Assembly: GCA_021568835.1 (NCBI GenBank)
Contig: JAKGSH010000005.1
Span: forward strand, 1 to 64,000
DNA length: 64,000 nt
Origin: Streptomyces sp. Tue 6430
GTDB lineage: Bacteria; Actinomycetota; Actinomycetes; Streptomycetales; Streptomycetaceae
Reading direction: 5' to 3'
The position numbers were made by a program, and so were the translations under genes. A model generated the notes under the pieces. It worked only from the letters and a program-made list of their open reading frames with translations. It searched no databases and was not told the DNA's origin. Below are positions 2,997 to 47,812 of the stretch, one piece after another; the stretch's first letter is position 1; the number at the start of each line of letters is the position of its first letter.

Positions 2997-4196
2997 GTGA
3001 ACACCGCCACCCCGCCCACCGCCCGGCACGAGGCGCCCGACGACCAGGACCGGGGCCAGGACCAGGGCCAGGAGCAGGGCCAGAACCGGGGTCTGCGCCC
3101 GCGCACCGGCTGGCACCGCCTGGAGGTCACCGAGGTGCGCCGCCTCACCGCCGACGCCGTGGCCGTCGGCCTGGCCGTACCGGCCGCGCTGCGCGAGGTC
3201 TTCGCCCACCGGCCCGGCCAGCACGTCGTCGTCCGCCATCACCGCGCCGACGGCGAACTGCGCCGCAGCTATTCGGTGTGCCCGCCGCCGCACGACCCCC
3301 GGGCACTCCGCCTGGTCGTCAAACGGGGCGGCCCCGACGGCTTCGGCGCCCACGCCGTCAGCCGCCTCGCACCCGGTGACCGTCTCCAACTCTCCCCGCC
3401 CACAGGTGACTTCTCCCTGCCGGACCTGCCCGGTGCCCACCACTTCCTCCTCGCCGGCGGCTCGGGCATCACCCCGCTCGCCGCCATGGCCGCCCACGCG
3501 CTGCGCCACGACCCGGCCTGCCGCGTCTCCCTCGTCCATTCCGTCCCCACGTCCGCGGACGCCCTGCTGGCCGACGAACTCGCCGAACTCAAGGACGCGT
3601 TCCTCGACCGGCTCACCGTCCTGTACGTCCTCACCCGCGAGGACCGCGGCCACGGCGACGGCCCCTTCGGCAGACGGATCGACGCCGGGAGCCTGTCCCG
3701 GCTGTTCGCGGCGACGGACGCCCGGCCCGGCCCGGACACCGTGTTCGCCCTGTGCGGCCCGCCCGGTCTGGTCGACACCGCGCGGCAGGCCCTGACGGAC
3801 CGGGGAGCCGACCCGGCCCTGATCCGCCGGGAGTTGTTCACGGCGCCCGGCACGTCCCCGAGGGAACCGGACACGGCCGCACCGGTGCGCACGGCCGCCG
3901 TGGTCCCGGGCGTGGGGGAGGCCCGCGTCACCGCCCTGCTCGGCGGGCGCCACCGCGCCGCCACCGTCCTGCCGCAGGACACGGCGATCCTCGACGCGCT
4001 GCTGCGGGCGGACCCCGACGTGCCGTACGCCTGCCGCGAAGGCGTGTGCGGCAGCTGCCGCGCGAAGGTCCTGTCCGGCCGGGTCGCGGCGGAGGGCCAG
4101 TACGCCCTCGACCAGGGCGACCGCGCCGCCGGCTACACGCTCGTCTGCCGGGCGCGGCCGAGCACCCCCGAGGTCACCCTCGACTTCGACGCATGA
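2997..4196 (+). CDS. paaE: Phenylacetyl-CoA epoxidase reductase PaaE
   Basis: NADPH-dependent reductase that feeds electrons to PaaA, with an intact frame. Domain order: an FAD-binding barrel with RRSYSVCPPP, an NAD(P)-binding domain with GGSGITPLAAMA and ALCGPPGLVD, and a C-terminal plant-type ferredoxin domain in which YACREGVCGSCRAKV and a distal TLVCRARP supply the four cysteines for a [2Fe-2S] cluster. The first ~35 residues are a low-complexity Asp/Gln/Gly stretch (DQDRGQDQGQEQGQ). The GTG at 2997 follows the paaD stop by eight bases. An in-frame GTG at 2925 lies inside paaD and is rejected. Confidence 0.93.
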   Translation: MNTATPPTARHEAPDDQDRGQDQGQEQGQNRGLRPRTGWHRLEVTEVRRLTADAVAVGLAVPAALREVFAHRPGQHVVVRHHRADGELRRSYSVCPPPHDPRALRLVVKRGGPDGFGAHAVSRLAPGDRLQLSPPTGDFSLPDLPGAHHFLLAGGSGITPLAAMAAHALRHDPACRVSLVHSVPTSADALLADELAELKDAFLDRLTVLYVLTREDRGHGDGPFGRRIDAGSLSRLFAATDARPGPDTVFALCGPPGLVDTARQALTDRGADPALIRRELFTAPGTSPREPDTAAPVRTAAVVPGVGEARVTALLGGRHRAATVLPQDTAILDALLRADPDVPYACREGVCGSCRAKVLSGRVAAEGQYALDQGDRAAGYTLVCRARPSTPEVTLDFDA

Positions 4197-14720: not shown

Positions 14721-14790
14721 CCGCCCGGTCACCGGCCCGACGGCGGTGACCGGGCGGGCGGCCACGGGGCTCTCCCGGGCCGCCCGCCCG
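14721..14790. terminator. Paired hairpins between convergent genes
   Basis: Two perfect stems overlap in the gap between the FG-GAP gene (+) and the secreted hydrolase (-). One has a 14-bp stem, 14721-14734 with 14744-14757. The other has a 13-bp stem, 14751-14763 with 14778-14790. As they share bases, only one can fold at a time. They suit a bidirectional terminator. Confidence 0.65.
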
Positions 14791-20851: not shown

Positions 20852-20892
20852 GGATGCCCCGGCGAACGCTCCGGCCGTTCGCCGGGGCATCC
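20852..20892 (+). terminator. Strong hairpin in a gene-free stretch
   Basis: A perfect 17-bp stem (20852-20868 with 20876-20892), 7-nt loop CTCCGGC, about 160 bases after the DUF4232 stop. No T-run, as is common in actinobacterial terminators. The rest of 20690-21241 contains no supportable gene. Confidence 0.55.
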
Positions 20893-24399: not shown

Positions 24400-24475
24400 A
24401 TCCACTCGAACGGTCGGCGCCCCTGCACAGTTCAGCAGGGAGGGACCGCCCACTGTTGCCGGTGTGGCGGCAACG

Positions 24476-24506
24476 GTCGTCGTGGACGCCCGGCGTCCAC
24501 GACGAC
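24476..24506. terminator. Perfect hairpin after the I36-type gene
   Basis: GTCGTCGTGGACG at 24476-24488 pairs with 24494-24506 across a 5-nt loop, 77 bases after the stop. It is the probable terminator. Between it and the next gene (24507-24830) I see no gene. Confidence 0.65.
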
Positions 24507-24829
24507 CCGGGTGTCGCACAGGCCGGGGCACAACGACCGCCCGACGGCAGTACGGCGACGACACCCTCCCGCACCTGCGTACCGGGACGCCTCTGTGCCC
24601 GAACGCCCGAGGTACGGCGTCCGGTACCTCACAGCACCCGCGCGGCGTCCCACAGCACCCGCTGCGCCCGCCGTCACACGACGGCCCCGGGGTGAAGACA
24701 CCGGCCGGCTCCTGTCCGGTCGGGCACGCCGGCCGCCTTGTCCTCGAATCGGACGTGGACGAGGTGGCGGCACCTCGGCAGGTGCCTTCGGCACGAAAGC
24801 CGGGACCGGCCGAGAGCACCCGCACACGG

Positions 24830-34281: not shown

Positions 34282-34332
34282 AAGCGGACAGTTGTCCGTT
34301 ACGTTTTCCGGGTAACGGACAACTGTCCGCTT
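34282..34332. promoter_or_regulatory. Large palindrome between tetR and the Mo-hydroxylase operon
   Basis: A perfect 21-bp inverted repeat, 34282-34302 with 34312-34332, spacer GTTTTCCGG. Each arm contains its own near-palindrome: CGGACAGTTGTCCG at 34285-34298 and CGGACAACTGTCCG at 34316-34329. Two adjacent dyads suit two TetR dimers. The A/T-rich spacer could carry promoter elements. Confidence 0.8.
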
Positions 34333-45405: not shown

Positions 45406-46771
45406 TCAGAGCCTGTCGGCCGCCCGGACCCGGTTGAGGTGGACAAGGACGTCGTAGGCCCGGCCGATCGCGAGAGTGGGCAGGGGGTCGGAGGTGAAGG
45501 TCGAACCGGCGTCGTAGACCGGCCGGGGCCGGTCGAGCCAGGCCCGCGCCTCGGCGGGTACCGCCCGCAGGTCTACGTAGAAGTCTCGGTACCCGACCCG
45601 GTCCAGGGTGTGCTCGTGCATGCCGGGACGTGCCGCCGGAACGGTGACGGGCTTCCAGTCGCCGTCGAGGGAGGCGTCTTTGGTGAGTAAGGAGCCGCCG
45701 GCGAAGGCGAAGCCGATCGCCGCGTAGCCGCGGCCCAGGCGGTCGCGCAGCACGGCGCCCTGGGTGCGCGGGTACATGTCGGGATGGGTGGACAGGTAGC
45801 CGACGTGGCCGTTGTGGGCGGACAGCAGCATCCTGTGGCCGGTCTGGCGCTGCCACCACAGCACGTTGTCGGCCATGGCCTGGTCGCGCAGGCGCTCCGC
45901 GGCTGTGACCGAGACCGGGTCCGCGAGGTCGACGGTGGCGAAGGCGAAGGTCTGCGCGATGTTCCGGGCGTGCTGCACGGTCCACGCGTAGTCCTCGCCG
46001 CCGGCCTCCTGGTGCCCGGCAACCAGGTCGAGGGCCTCCTGCGCCCGCGCGGCGTTCTCCTTGCGCTCCGGGAGCGGCTTGCGCAGGTGGGCGAAGATGT
46101 CGTCGAAGGGGCGCAGCCCCGCGTACAACTCCTTGAGCCGGGGCAGTGCCTCCGGCCTGGCCGTGCCGACGGACGACAGGACCCGTTCGAAGATGTGATC
46201 GCCGAGTTTCGGTGCCCCGAGGTCGTCGCCCATGAAGTGGACCCGGCGGTCGGGACGGCGACCGTTGTGGTCGCGCATCCAGCCGATCAGACGGACGAAC
46301 TCCTCGCGCTCCCAGGGGGATCCGGCCAGCGTCTCCCGTGCGATCCGTCGCGGATCGCCGGGGCCGCCCTGGAGGTACTCGTCGATCCTGAGCCCGGCCG
46401 ACCAGCTCATCTCCAGGGCGAAGGTGGTGAAGCCGCGTTCCTCGACGAGGTACTGGAAGACGCGGTGCTTCATGGCGAAGAACTCGTGCGAACCGTGCGT
46501 GGCCTCGCCGAGGCCCACCGCTTCCGCGCCTCCGACCATGGCGTCCAGCGCCCGCAGGTCCGCCGTCGAACCGCCGGGATCCGTGGAGCGCAGCGGGTGC
46601 GTGGCCCGCTCCAGGGAGCGTACGACGCCCGCGGGGGACGCGGGGGGCGCCGGGTACGAAGGGTGGGGACGGGGCCGCGGAAGCCGCCGGGGCGGCCACC
46701 GTCGTGGCGGCGAGCGCCGCCGTGAGGGCGAACAGCCCTCGTCGGCCGATCGACTTCCTGTACTCGTGCAT
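45406..46771 (-). CDS. Exported erythromycin-esterase-like protein (frameshifted as given)
   Basis: About 455 residues with one base missing near 46650. N-terminus KSIGRRGLFALTAALAATTV looks like a twin-arginine or Sec signal ending in PAASAA, so it acts outside the cell. Catalytic landmarks of the Ere/succinoglycan-biosynthesis fold: GLGEATHGSHEFFAMKH (Glu and His), FALEMSW (second Glu), and MLLSAHNGHVGY. Known relatives hydrolyse macrolides, but most members have unknown substrates. Divergent from a trypsin-like gene with two perfect palindromes between them. Confidence 0.82.
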
Positions 46772-46870
46772 GGTGATCACTCTTCGTGTGCGGCGGCTCC
46801 CCGAGCCGATGCAGTGATCTTCGTGCGCTGCGGCGCGGAGCGCGCTGAGGCCTCCCACCGTCTTGGTCCG

Positions 46871-46946
46871 GGGGACATTCCCCCGCAGCCGGCGGGGGAA
46901 TGTCCCCACCGCTTCCGGGTGCCGGCCGGATGGTCCGGCCGGCACC
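46871..46946. promoter_or_regulatory. Two adjacent perfect palindromes between divergent genes
   Basis: First: a 16-bp stem 46871-46886 with 46892-46907, loop AGCCG. Second: 13-bp stem GGTGCCGGCCGGA at 46918-46930 with 46934-46946, loop TGG. Both lie in the shared upstream region of the esterase (starts 46771) and the protease (starts 46997), so an operator or leader role is more likely than termination. Confidence 0.75.
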
Positions 46947-46996
46947 GGAACGAACAGGGTTGAACCACCAAGGTGTACGAAGGAAGGGAACCCTGG

Positions 46997-47812
46997 ATGT
47001 TCAGCATGAAGTCGGTCCGCCGCAGGGCGGCCCGCACGGTCGCGGTCGGCGCACTCGCGGTGGCGACGTGCGCCACGCTGATGGCCGGCAGTGCCGGGGC
47101 CATCGTCAACGGGACCGAGCCGACGGAGCACTACCCGTTCATGGCGGTGATCCCGGAGTCGGCACCCGAGCAGGGGCTGTACGACGGCAACTGCGGAGCC
47201 TCGCTGATCGATCCGCAGTGGGTGCTGACGGCGGCCCACTGCCTGCAGGACGACGGACTCCAGCTGGACGGCCTCGTCCGGATCGGCAGCACGGACCGCA
47301 AGTCCGGGGGGACCGTCCGGGCCATCGAGCGGACCTTCGTCCACCCCGGCTACCTGAACGGTGACGGGAAGGCCGCCAACAAGGACGACATCGCCCTGGT
47401 CCGCCTGGACCGCCCCGTCTCCGAGAAGCCCGTCCGGATCGCGGAACGGGCCGGACGACCCGGCACCCTGACCCGGATCCTCGGATTCGGCACGACCTCT
47501 GACACCGAACTGAACTTCCCGGAGCGACTGCGGGAACTCCGGACCCGCCGGGGCGCCGAGACCGAATGCGCCCCCGGATACGCCGACCGGACCCGGCTGT
47601 GCACGATCAGCCGCGTGCCCGCGGCCATGGCCTGCTTCGGGGACTCCGGCGGGCCGCAGCTCCAGAAGGACCGACACGGGCGGTGGGAGCTCATCGGAGT
47701 GACCTCGGGCCCGGGCGCCCCTGGCGTCCCGTGCTCAGCCGGGCCGGGCCTCTACACCAGCGTGCCCGCCTACGCGGGCTGGACCCGGCGGACCATCAGG
47801 CACAACTCCTGA
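46997..47812 (+). CDS. Secreted trypsin-like serine protease (S1A)
   Basis: 271 residues. ATG 46997 follows AAGGAAGGGA; the upstream GTG at 46973 overlaps that ribosome site. Signal peptide [19 protein letters not shown] is followed directly by IVNGTEP, a mature trypsin N-terminus at about residue 36, so there is no long propeptide. Triad: WVLTAAHC (His 81), DDIALV (Asp 131), and [10 protein letters not shown] (Ser 217). Six Cys can form the usual disulfides. Extracellular proteolysis. Confidence 0.9.

Follow-up and report, generated by a model that had tools for sequence, protein, structure and literature searches.

Two perfect inverted repeats between divergent esterase and protease genes of a Streptomyces, and a promoter signature that recurs upstream of hydrolases

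The locus and its inverted repeats

The window, which is the whole stretch of 64,000 nucleotides of Streptomyces sp. Tue 6430 that was analysed, contains an intergenic region of 225 nt (46772–46996), bounded by the ATG of an erythromycin-esterase-family gene at 46771 (minus strand) and the ATG of an S1 protease gene at 46997 (plus strand). Two inverted repeats lie within it, separated by a 10-nt spacer (46908–46917). The genes, the repeats and the promoter elements discussed below are as follows.

45406–46771, minus strand: erythromycin-esterase-family gene (PF05139, E 8.7e-72), with the start codon at 46771 and the domain ORF (45406–46539) in another frame
46816–46822, minus strand: GAAGATC, putative element spaced from box A as a -10 would be; the GATC-type block is largely conserved in 25 aligned esterase upstreams
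46870–46884, minus strand: box A, GGGGG-N5-CCCCC, a short semi-palindrome recognised from counts in esterase upstreams, including the greater part of hairpin 1's left arm
46871–46907, no strand: hairpin 1, 16-bp perfect inverted repeat with a loop of 5 (repeat scan); arms 46871–46886 and 46892–46907, 100% complementary
46894–46910, plus strand: box B, GGGGGAATGTCCCCACC, the diverged protease-side copy of GGGG-N4-CCCC-ACC (alignment of 36 selected promoters; best own-genome hit of profile R2), including the greater part of hairpin 1's right arm
46918–46946, no strand: hairpin 2, 13-bp perfect inverted repeat with a loop of 3 around GGATGG (repeat scan and alignments); arms 46918–46930 and 46934–46946, 100% complementary
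46928–46933, plus strand: GGATGG element, at the predicted protease -35 region or immediately 5' of it; ATGG in 36 of 36 rows of alignment A1
46955–46960, plus strand: predicted -10 of the protease promoter, CAGGGT, proposed from the A and T found in 36 of 36 A1 rows and from the ATG spacing in S33 loci
46980–46989, plus strand: protease ribosome-binding site, identified by eye
46997–47812, plus strand: ORF of the S1 (trypsin-family) protease (PF00089, E 1.9e-30), with a signal-peptide-like start judged by eye

The frame that opens at the esterase start codon, which is the signal-peptide frame, is out of register with the domain ORF, and the esterase gene is therefore interrupted in this assembly; the difference between the two frames (46531–46771) may be a true interruption or an assembly error. 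In S. viridiviolaceus (L027), a close relative, reading from the esterase start likewise breaks down, and the esterase domain was not found at E 1e-20 in the 5,034-nt locus. The protease and the esterase domain are adjacent in 8 of 57 protease loci (53 distinct upstream sequences), and because of this proportion the pairing is considered real in one lineage and not general. Two of the eight, L032 from S. diastatochromogenes and L064 from genome G224, have identical upstream sequence; in L040 and L077, which have one upstream sequence between them, the esterase match extends over only 95 residues. When the intergenic region was searched against the DNA of 199 genomes of the genus, three matches of at least about 100 nt were found outside its own genome, each covering a single side (the esterase side in G004 and G076, the protease side in G150), the rest being short. 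The esterase in G004 and G076 is preceded by different genes, and the esterases of loci L004 and L005 have different upstream neighbours.

Both perfect repeats exceed chance. Perfect arms of at least 11 bp (loops of 3–10) occur 11 times in the window, compared with 0–2 times in 12 first-order Markov simulations; arms of at least 13 bp appeared in one of the 12 runs and arms of at least 16 bp in none. The sequence-only reading, which had described two perfect palindromes of 16 and 13 bp lying 10 bases apart in a 225-bp region, was thus accurate as to their positions and perfection. Other perfect arms of 21, 17, 15, 14 and again 13 bp are found elsewhere in the window, two of them longer than those of hairpin 1. 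The 21-bp repeat (34282–34332, loop 9) lies between divergent ORFs, the left of which looks by eye like a TetR-type regulator, and may be an operator; the 17-bp repeat (20852–20892, loop 7) lies 3' of a predicted lipoprotein ORF, between convergent ORFs, and may be a terminator; and the repeats at 24475–24507 and 14721–14757 have perfect arms of 15 and 14 bp, respectively. In the same intergenic region of L032 (about 3849–3885) and L064, the two boxes flank an unrelated perfect hairpin of 17 bp.

The presence of further long perfect repeats in the window would agree with scattered repetitive palindromes, REP-like or mobile, having been inserted here; however, a search of the home genome with the 225 bp at E 0.001 returned nothing beyond the region itself and its arms, and such an origin is extremely improbable. 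The stems could also be terminators or insulators between the divergent genes, or leftovers of a lost neighbour, and GC-rich stems lacking a T-run can act as terminators in Streptomyces. However, both flanking genes are transcribed away from the region, a terminator scan found no intrinsic terminator (a stem followed by a T-run) within it, and the core elements described below are retained 5' of the protease where the esterase is absent, which makes this explanation very unlikely. The region is a shared divergent promoter, and the objection to terminators already raised from its placement stands.

Conserved elements underlying the two hairpins

On the esterase side, GGGG-N4-CCCC occurs within the first 300 nt of 19 of 29 distinct esterase upstreams, compared with a mean of 2.0 and a maximum of 7 in 200 Markov simulations, and the strict box is missing from 10 of the 29. 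Measured by eye, box and -10-like element are 48 nt apart in the window, where the latter is GAAGATC, and equally far apart upstream of the distant esterase L148, where it is GAATCGT. The promoters of close esterases keep the box and lack GGATGG, and the same kind of box is found in both gene families where the esterase and the protease are not neighbours. By these comparisons, the left arm of hairpin 1 is a box of the esterase itself. In the upstream region of the esterase L090 (G305), a reversed GGATGG (CCATCC) is kept, as if a protease promoter had once adjoined the esterase; the protease that was found in G305 is on the same contig, at a distance of about 52 kb.

On the protease side, 58 upstream sequences were collected, of which nine were dropped (four duplicates, one with a misplaced start and four from other genera). 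The 49 aligned rows reveal an upstream layout of GGGGG-N4-CCCC-ACC, about 17–19 nt, GGATGG, about 20–21 nt and nAGG(C/G)T, which is standard in 36 of them. These 36 rows constitute alignment A1, within which ATGG, the A and T of the -10 and four more positions are invariant, an invariance that is partly due to selection since the other 13 rows were excluded for their differing layout. An exact GGATGG is located at -66 to -76 in 37 of the 58 upstreams (35 of 54 distinct ones), elsewhere in 5, and is absent from 16. The A1 promoters share box B, ATGG and the -10-like element whether or not an esterase adjoins. The right arm of hairpin 1 corresponds to the GGGG-N4-CCCC-ACC box, and hairpin 2 to a GC-rich dyad around GGATGG, whose core is conserved over the 36 rows while its outer arms vary. 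In L029 (S. niphimycinicus), tandem GGGACCGGGGG-type units lie immediately 5' of the protease box.

The possibility that both genes are controlled by the two stems as such, folded in RNA or extruded as cruciforms, has been weighed against these results. The predicted RNA fold of the window region is very stable (z -7.2), but z is only -0.9 to -3.3 in five relatives. The arms of hairpin 2 are mostly retained in the six closest loci, and the proportion of paired cells is slightly above that of shuffles in both stems: 71.1% against 69.8% for the hairpin 2 dyad in 36 rows (31 of 500 shuffles as high) and 89.6% against 87.2% for hairpin 1 in 6 rows (34 of 500 as high). Slid versions of the stems pair less (24–51% and 50–69%), as expected, since it was the window that defined the stems. 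Changes on both sides of a pair do not exceed those in shuffles, with 3 against 4.2, i.e., fewer, in hairpin 2 and a single one in hairpin 1 (223 of 500 shuffles), where 9 of 16 pairs are invariant and six rows give little power; with the same reservation for hairpin 1, neither stem shows covariation in excess of shuffles. A search of Rfam returned four matches, all far below the gathering scores (best E 0.32). Of the six close loci compared, the window alone has a perfect hairpin 1; in the other five its arms are two separate short boxes, one per gene. In addition, the predicted protease -10 and start site lie 3' of both hairpins, so the protease transcript would contain neither of them. Control by the hairpins themselves is unlikely on this evidence. 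The earlier proposal of a switch co-regulating two exported hydrolases can be retained in part, in that the region is shared and the repeats coincide with conserved sites of both genes, which lends co-regulation partial support; its other part, a switch made of the hairpins themselves, is not supported, given a stem that is perfect at one locus only and the negative covariation results.

How the perfect stem may have arisen is suggested by the centre of its left arm, which is ACATT in the window, the exact complement of AATGT in the right arm, while five close relatives have different left-arm centres, four of the TNNT kind. The simplest account would be a template switch (quasi-palindrome) event by which one arm was copied from the other. 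Hairpin 1 may thus represent two near-self-complementary boxes standing side by side, of which the esterase-side one acquired a centre exactly complementary to the protease-side one.

Recurrence of the bipartite site in Streptomyces genomes

The strict pattern GGGGNNNNCCCNACC-N17..19-CSGGATGG was found at 42 places in 39 of 295 Streptomyces genomes, with one match for the reverse-read control. When the spacing was left free (box, N4–34, CSGGATGG), the same 295 genomes gave 88 matches, of which 41 have a spacing of 17 and 20 a spacing of 16, with 0–4 at each other spacing, while the reverse-read control, counted by eye, gave 18 over all 31 spacings. The 61 matches at spacings 16–17 compare with about 1 expected. 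The set A2 left out three of 30 fetched pattern loci (L151 and L163 by judgement, L158 for its spacing of 18). In 28 of 29 matches, one position not covered by the search pattern is a G.

A hydrolase relative lies just downstream in 44 of the 48 fetched loci with spacing 16–17, which cover 48 of the 61 matches (49 loci were fetched, and one with spacing 18 was set aside). These 44 comprise S33 (24), S41 (6), M20 (5), erythromycin esterase (4), S1 (3) and beta-lactamase fold (2), the family names being taken from one exemplar each, with six of the loci having supplied the exemplars and with an identity of only 35–37% in two of the S33 matches (L243 and L245). Three of the other four loci have no exemplar match and one has a kinase. 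The 48 loci include orthologues and are not 48 independent events. S33, S41, M20 and the beta-lactamase fold, which make up 37 of them, played no role in deriving the pattern. The hydrolases are apparently exported, judging by eye from their signal-peptide-like N-termini. In S33 loci, the ATG follows GGATGG by 32 nt in 18 of 24 cases and by 33 nt in 5, and by neither in one (L245). This spacing fits leaderless transcripts that would begin at the ATG, just past the predicted -10.

Beyond the genus, seven matches were counted by eye in 354 genomes, compared with 11 in 40 genomes of the genus, and the control gave none. No hydrolase was seen downstream of these seven sites: three (L217, L218 and L222) are inside predicted ORFs, and the remaining ones stand before genes for an ABC transporter, an MMPL protein and a Sensor-domain kinase and before another ABC-type gene. 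In the open-access literature, no description of a GGGG-N4-CCCC-ACC/CSGGATGG promoter was found.

The window promoter does precede a hydrolase gene, the S1 protease (PF00089, export judged by eye), but its own form departs from the pattern. The centre of box B is five bases long, and 15 nt, not 16–17, separate its inner half from CSGGATGG (by eye); because of these two features strict patterns miss the window copy, and the exact GGGG-N4-CCCNACC with 16 or 17 nt and CSGGATGG has no match in its own genome (G000), the window included. The strict pattern gave 0 matches in that genome (control 1), and up to three mismatches gave 2 (control 1), nothing useful. By contrast with these strict patterns, profile R2, built from 27 other promoters of which three are from protease relatives, ranked the window protease promoter first in its own genome (E 1.4e-4). 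It may be regarded as a weak, diverged and drifting member of the class. A search for the motifs elsewhere in the genome had been named earlier as a check on the switch, and it yielded no second convincing full site among the 150 of about 28,000 profile candidates that were scored; a regulon in this genome is therefore unsupported. The six S33 homologues in this genome (33–38% identical) have no box in their 330-nt upstream stretches, as judged by eye. Three box-only sites, L211 (G000:C2:2397549), L212 (G000:C2:61102) and L213 (G000:C2:840904), carry GGGGTTAACCCCACC or GGGGCAGGCCCCACC without a downstream GGATGG.

Proposed activation, candidate regulators and meaning

It is considered likely, from the comparisons above, that the region is the local form of an activator-dependent promoter class for secreted Streptomyces hydrolases, not an RNA hairpin switch. 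The 225 nt would consist of two back-to-back promoters, each gene having a GGGG-N4-CCCC box upstream, and the protease promoter would add GGATGG about 30 bp further down from the box, followed by the -10. A putative activator would bind the box and/or GGATGG as double-stranded DNA and, once bound, recruit RNA polymerase where the -35 region is weak, and exported hydrolases would be expressed as a set. Alternatively, the box and GGATGG could be the core of an alternative sigma-factor promoter that works without a separate activator, for which the strict spacing and the failure to find any sigma-70 consensus here (TTGACA, 16–18 nt, TATAAT-like) can be cited. However, the box is situated at about -67 (by eye), far beyond the usual sigma footprint, and close esterase promoters retain it without GGATGG, so this arrangement is improbable.

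Several known systems resemble the activator-dependent promoter in part. One published account (PMC7567727) describes MalT-type promoters with a GGA(T/G)G-type core that overlaps the -35 and a distance of 34.4 ± 1.0 nt from the motif end to the start site. Similar to the MalT/LAL promoters of the E. coli mal genes and the Actinoplanes MalT region, GGATGG here ends 32–33 nt short of the ATG in 23 of 24 S33 loci, whose starts are apparently leaderless; unlike the MalT/LAL sites, it is GGATGG and not GGA(T/G)GA, it is without the TCATCC partner, and a GGGG-N4-CCCC box is added. Neither the GGA(T/G)GA core nor TCATCC-N5-GGATGA occurs at this site, and GGATGG can be described as occupying the MalT-box position while being, by its letters, no MalT box. 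PAS-LuxR operators, whose consensus CTVGGGAWWTCCCBAG is linked to PimM, are likewise GGG-N4-CCC palindromes in Streptomyces, and this consensus has no occurrence in the 225 nt. The CutRS secretion-stress regulon governs exported proteases in Streptomyces, and PMC12802291 gives the CutR site as TAWATAAA. CutR was considered on account of secretion stress and ruled out, TAWATAAA being absent from the region. The motifs of AdpA, PhoP, DasR, ClgR and LexA and the DosR core are also absent from the 225 nt.

A bipartite site lies directly 5' of a "Sensor" (PF13796) histidine kinase gene in genomes G219 and G667, and in G443 it lies on an ABC transporter divergent from a Sensor-domain kinase. The kinase gene is followed by one for a response regulator in G219, with a LuxR-type (GerE) domain by Pfam, and in G443, as judged from sequence alone; next to the G667 kinase no such gene was seen, and the kinase exemplar has no match in 19 spacing-16 loci. 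LuxR/NarL-type response regulators with a Sensor kinase are comparable in that the bipartite site adjoins such kinase genes, the binding link being putative. The G219 kinase operon, which we take by gene order to be AbrC-like, was considered as an autoregulating system and set aside, its site lying between two kinase genes and being treated as possibly due to chance.

A wider proposal, given somewhat less than an even chance, is that an undescribed class of promoters, widespread in Streptomyces (GGGG-N4-CCCC-ACC, 16–17 nt, CSGGATGG, about 20 nt, nAGGNT), is controlled by one putative activator, perhaps a response regulator of the LuxR type that partners a Sensor-domain kinase, which would jointly switch on unrelated families of exported hydrolases (S33, S41, M20 and S1 enzymes, erythromycin esterases and proteins of the beta-lactamase fold), the window being a diverged member with two promoters back to back. 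Streptomyces are heavy secretors and are used for industrial enzymes, and to our knowledge the coordination of many of their extracellular peptidases is little understood. The locus illustrates that a striking perfect hairpin can arise from two neighbouring sequence boxes, and the finding worth following is the recurring promoter signature of hydrolase genes. A searchable signature common to six hydrolase families may provide a handle on the regulator and its signal, and would allow the secreted enzymes that are made together to be predicted.
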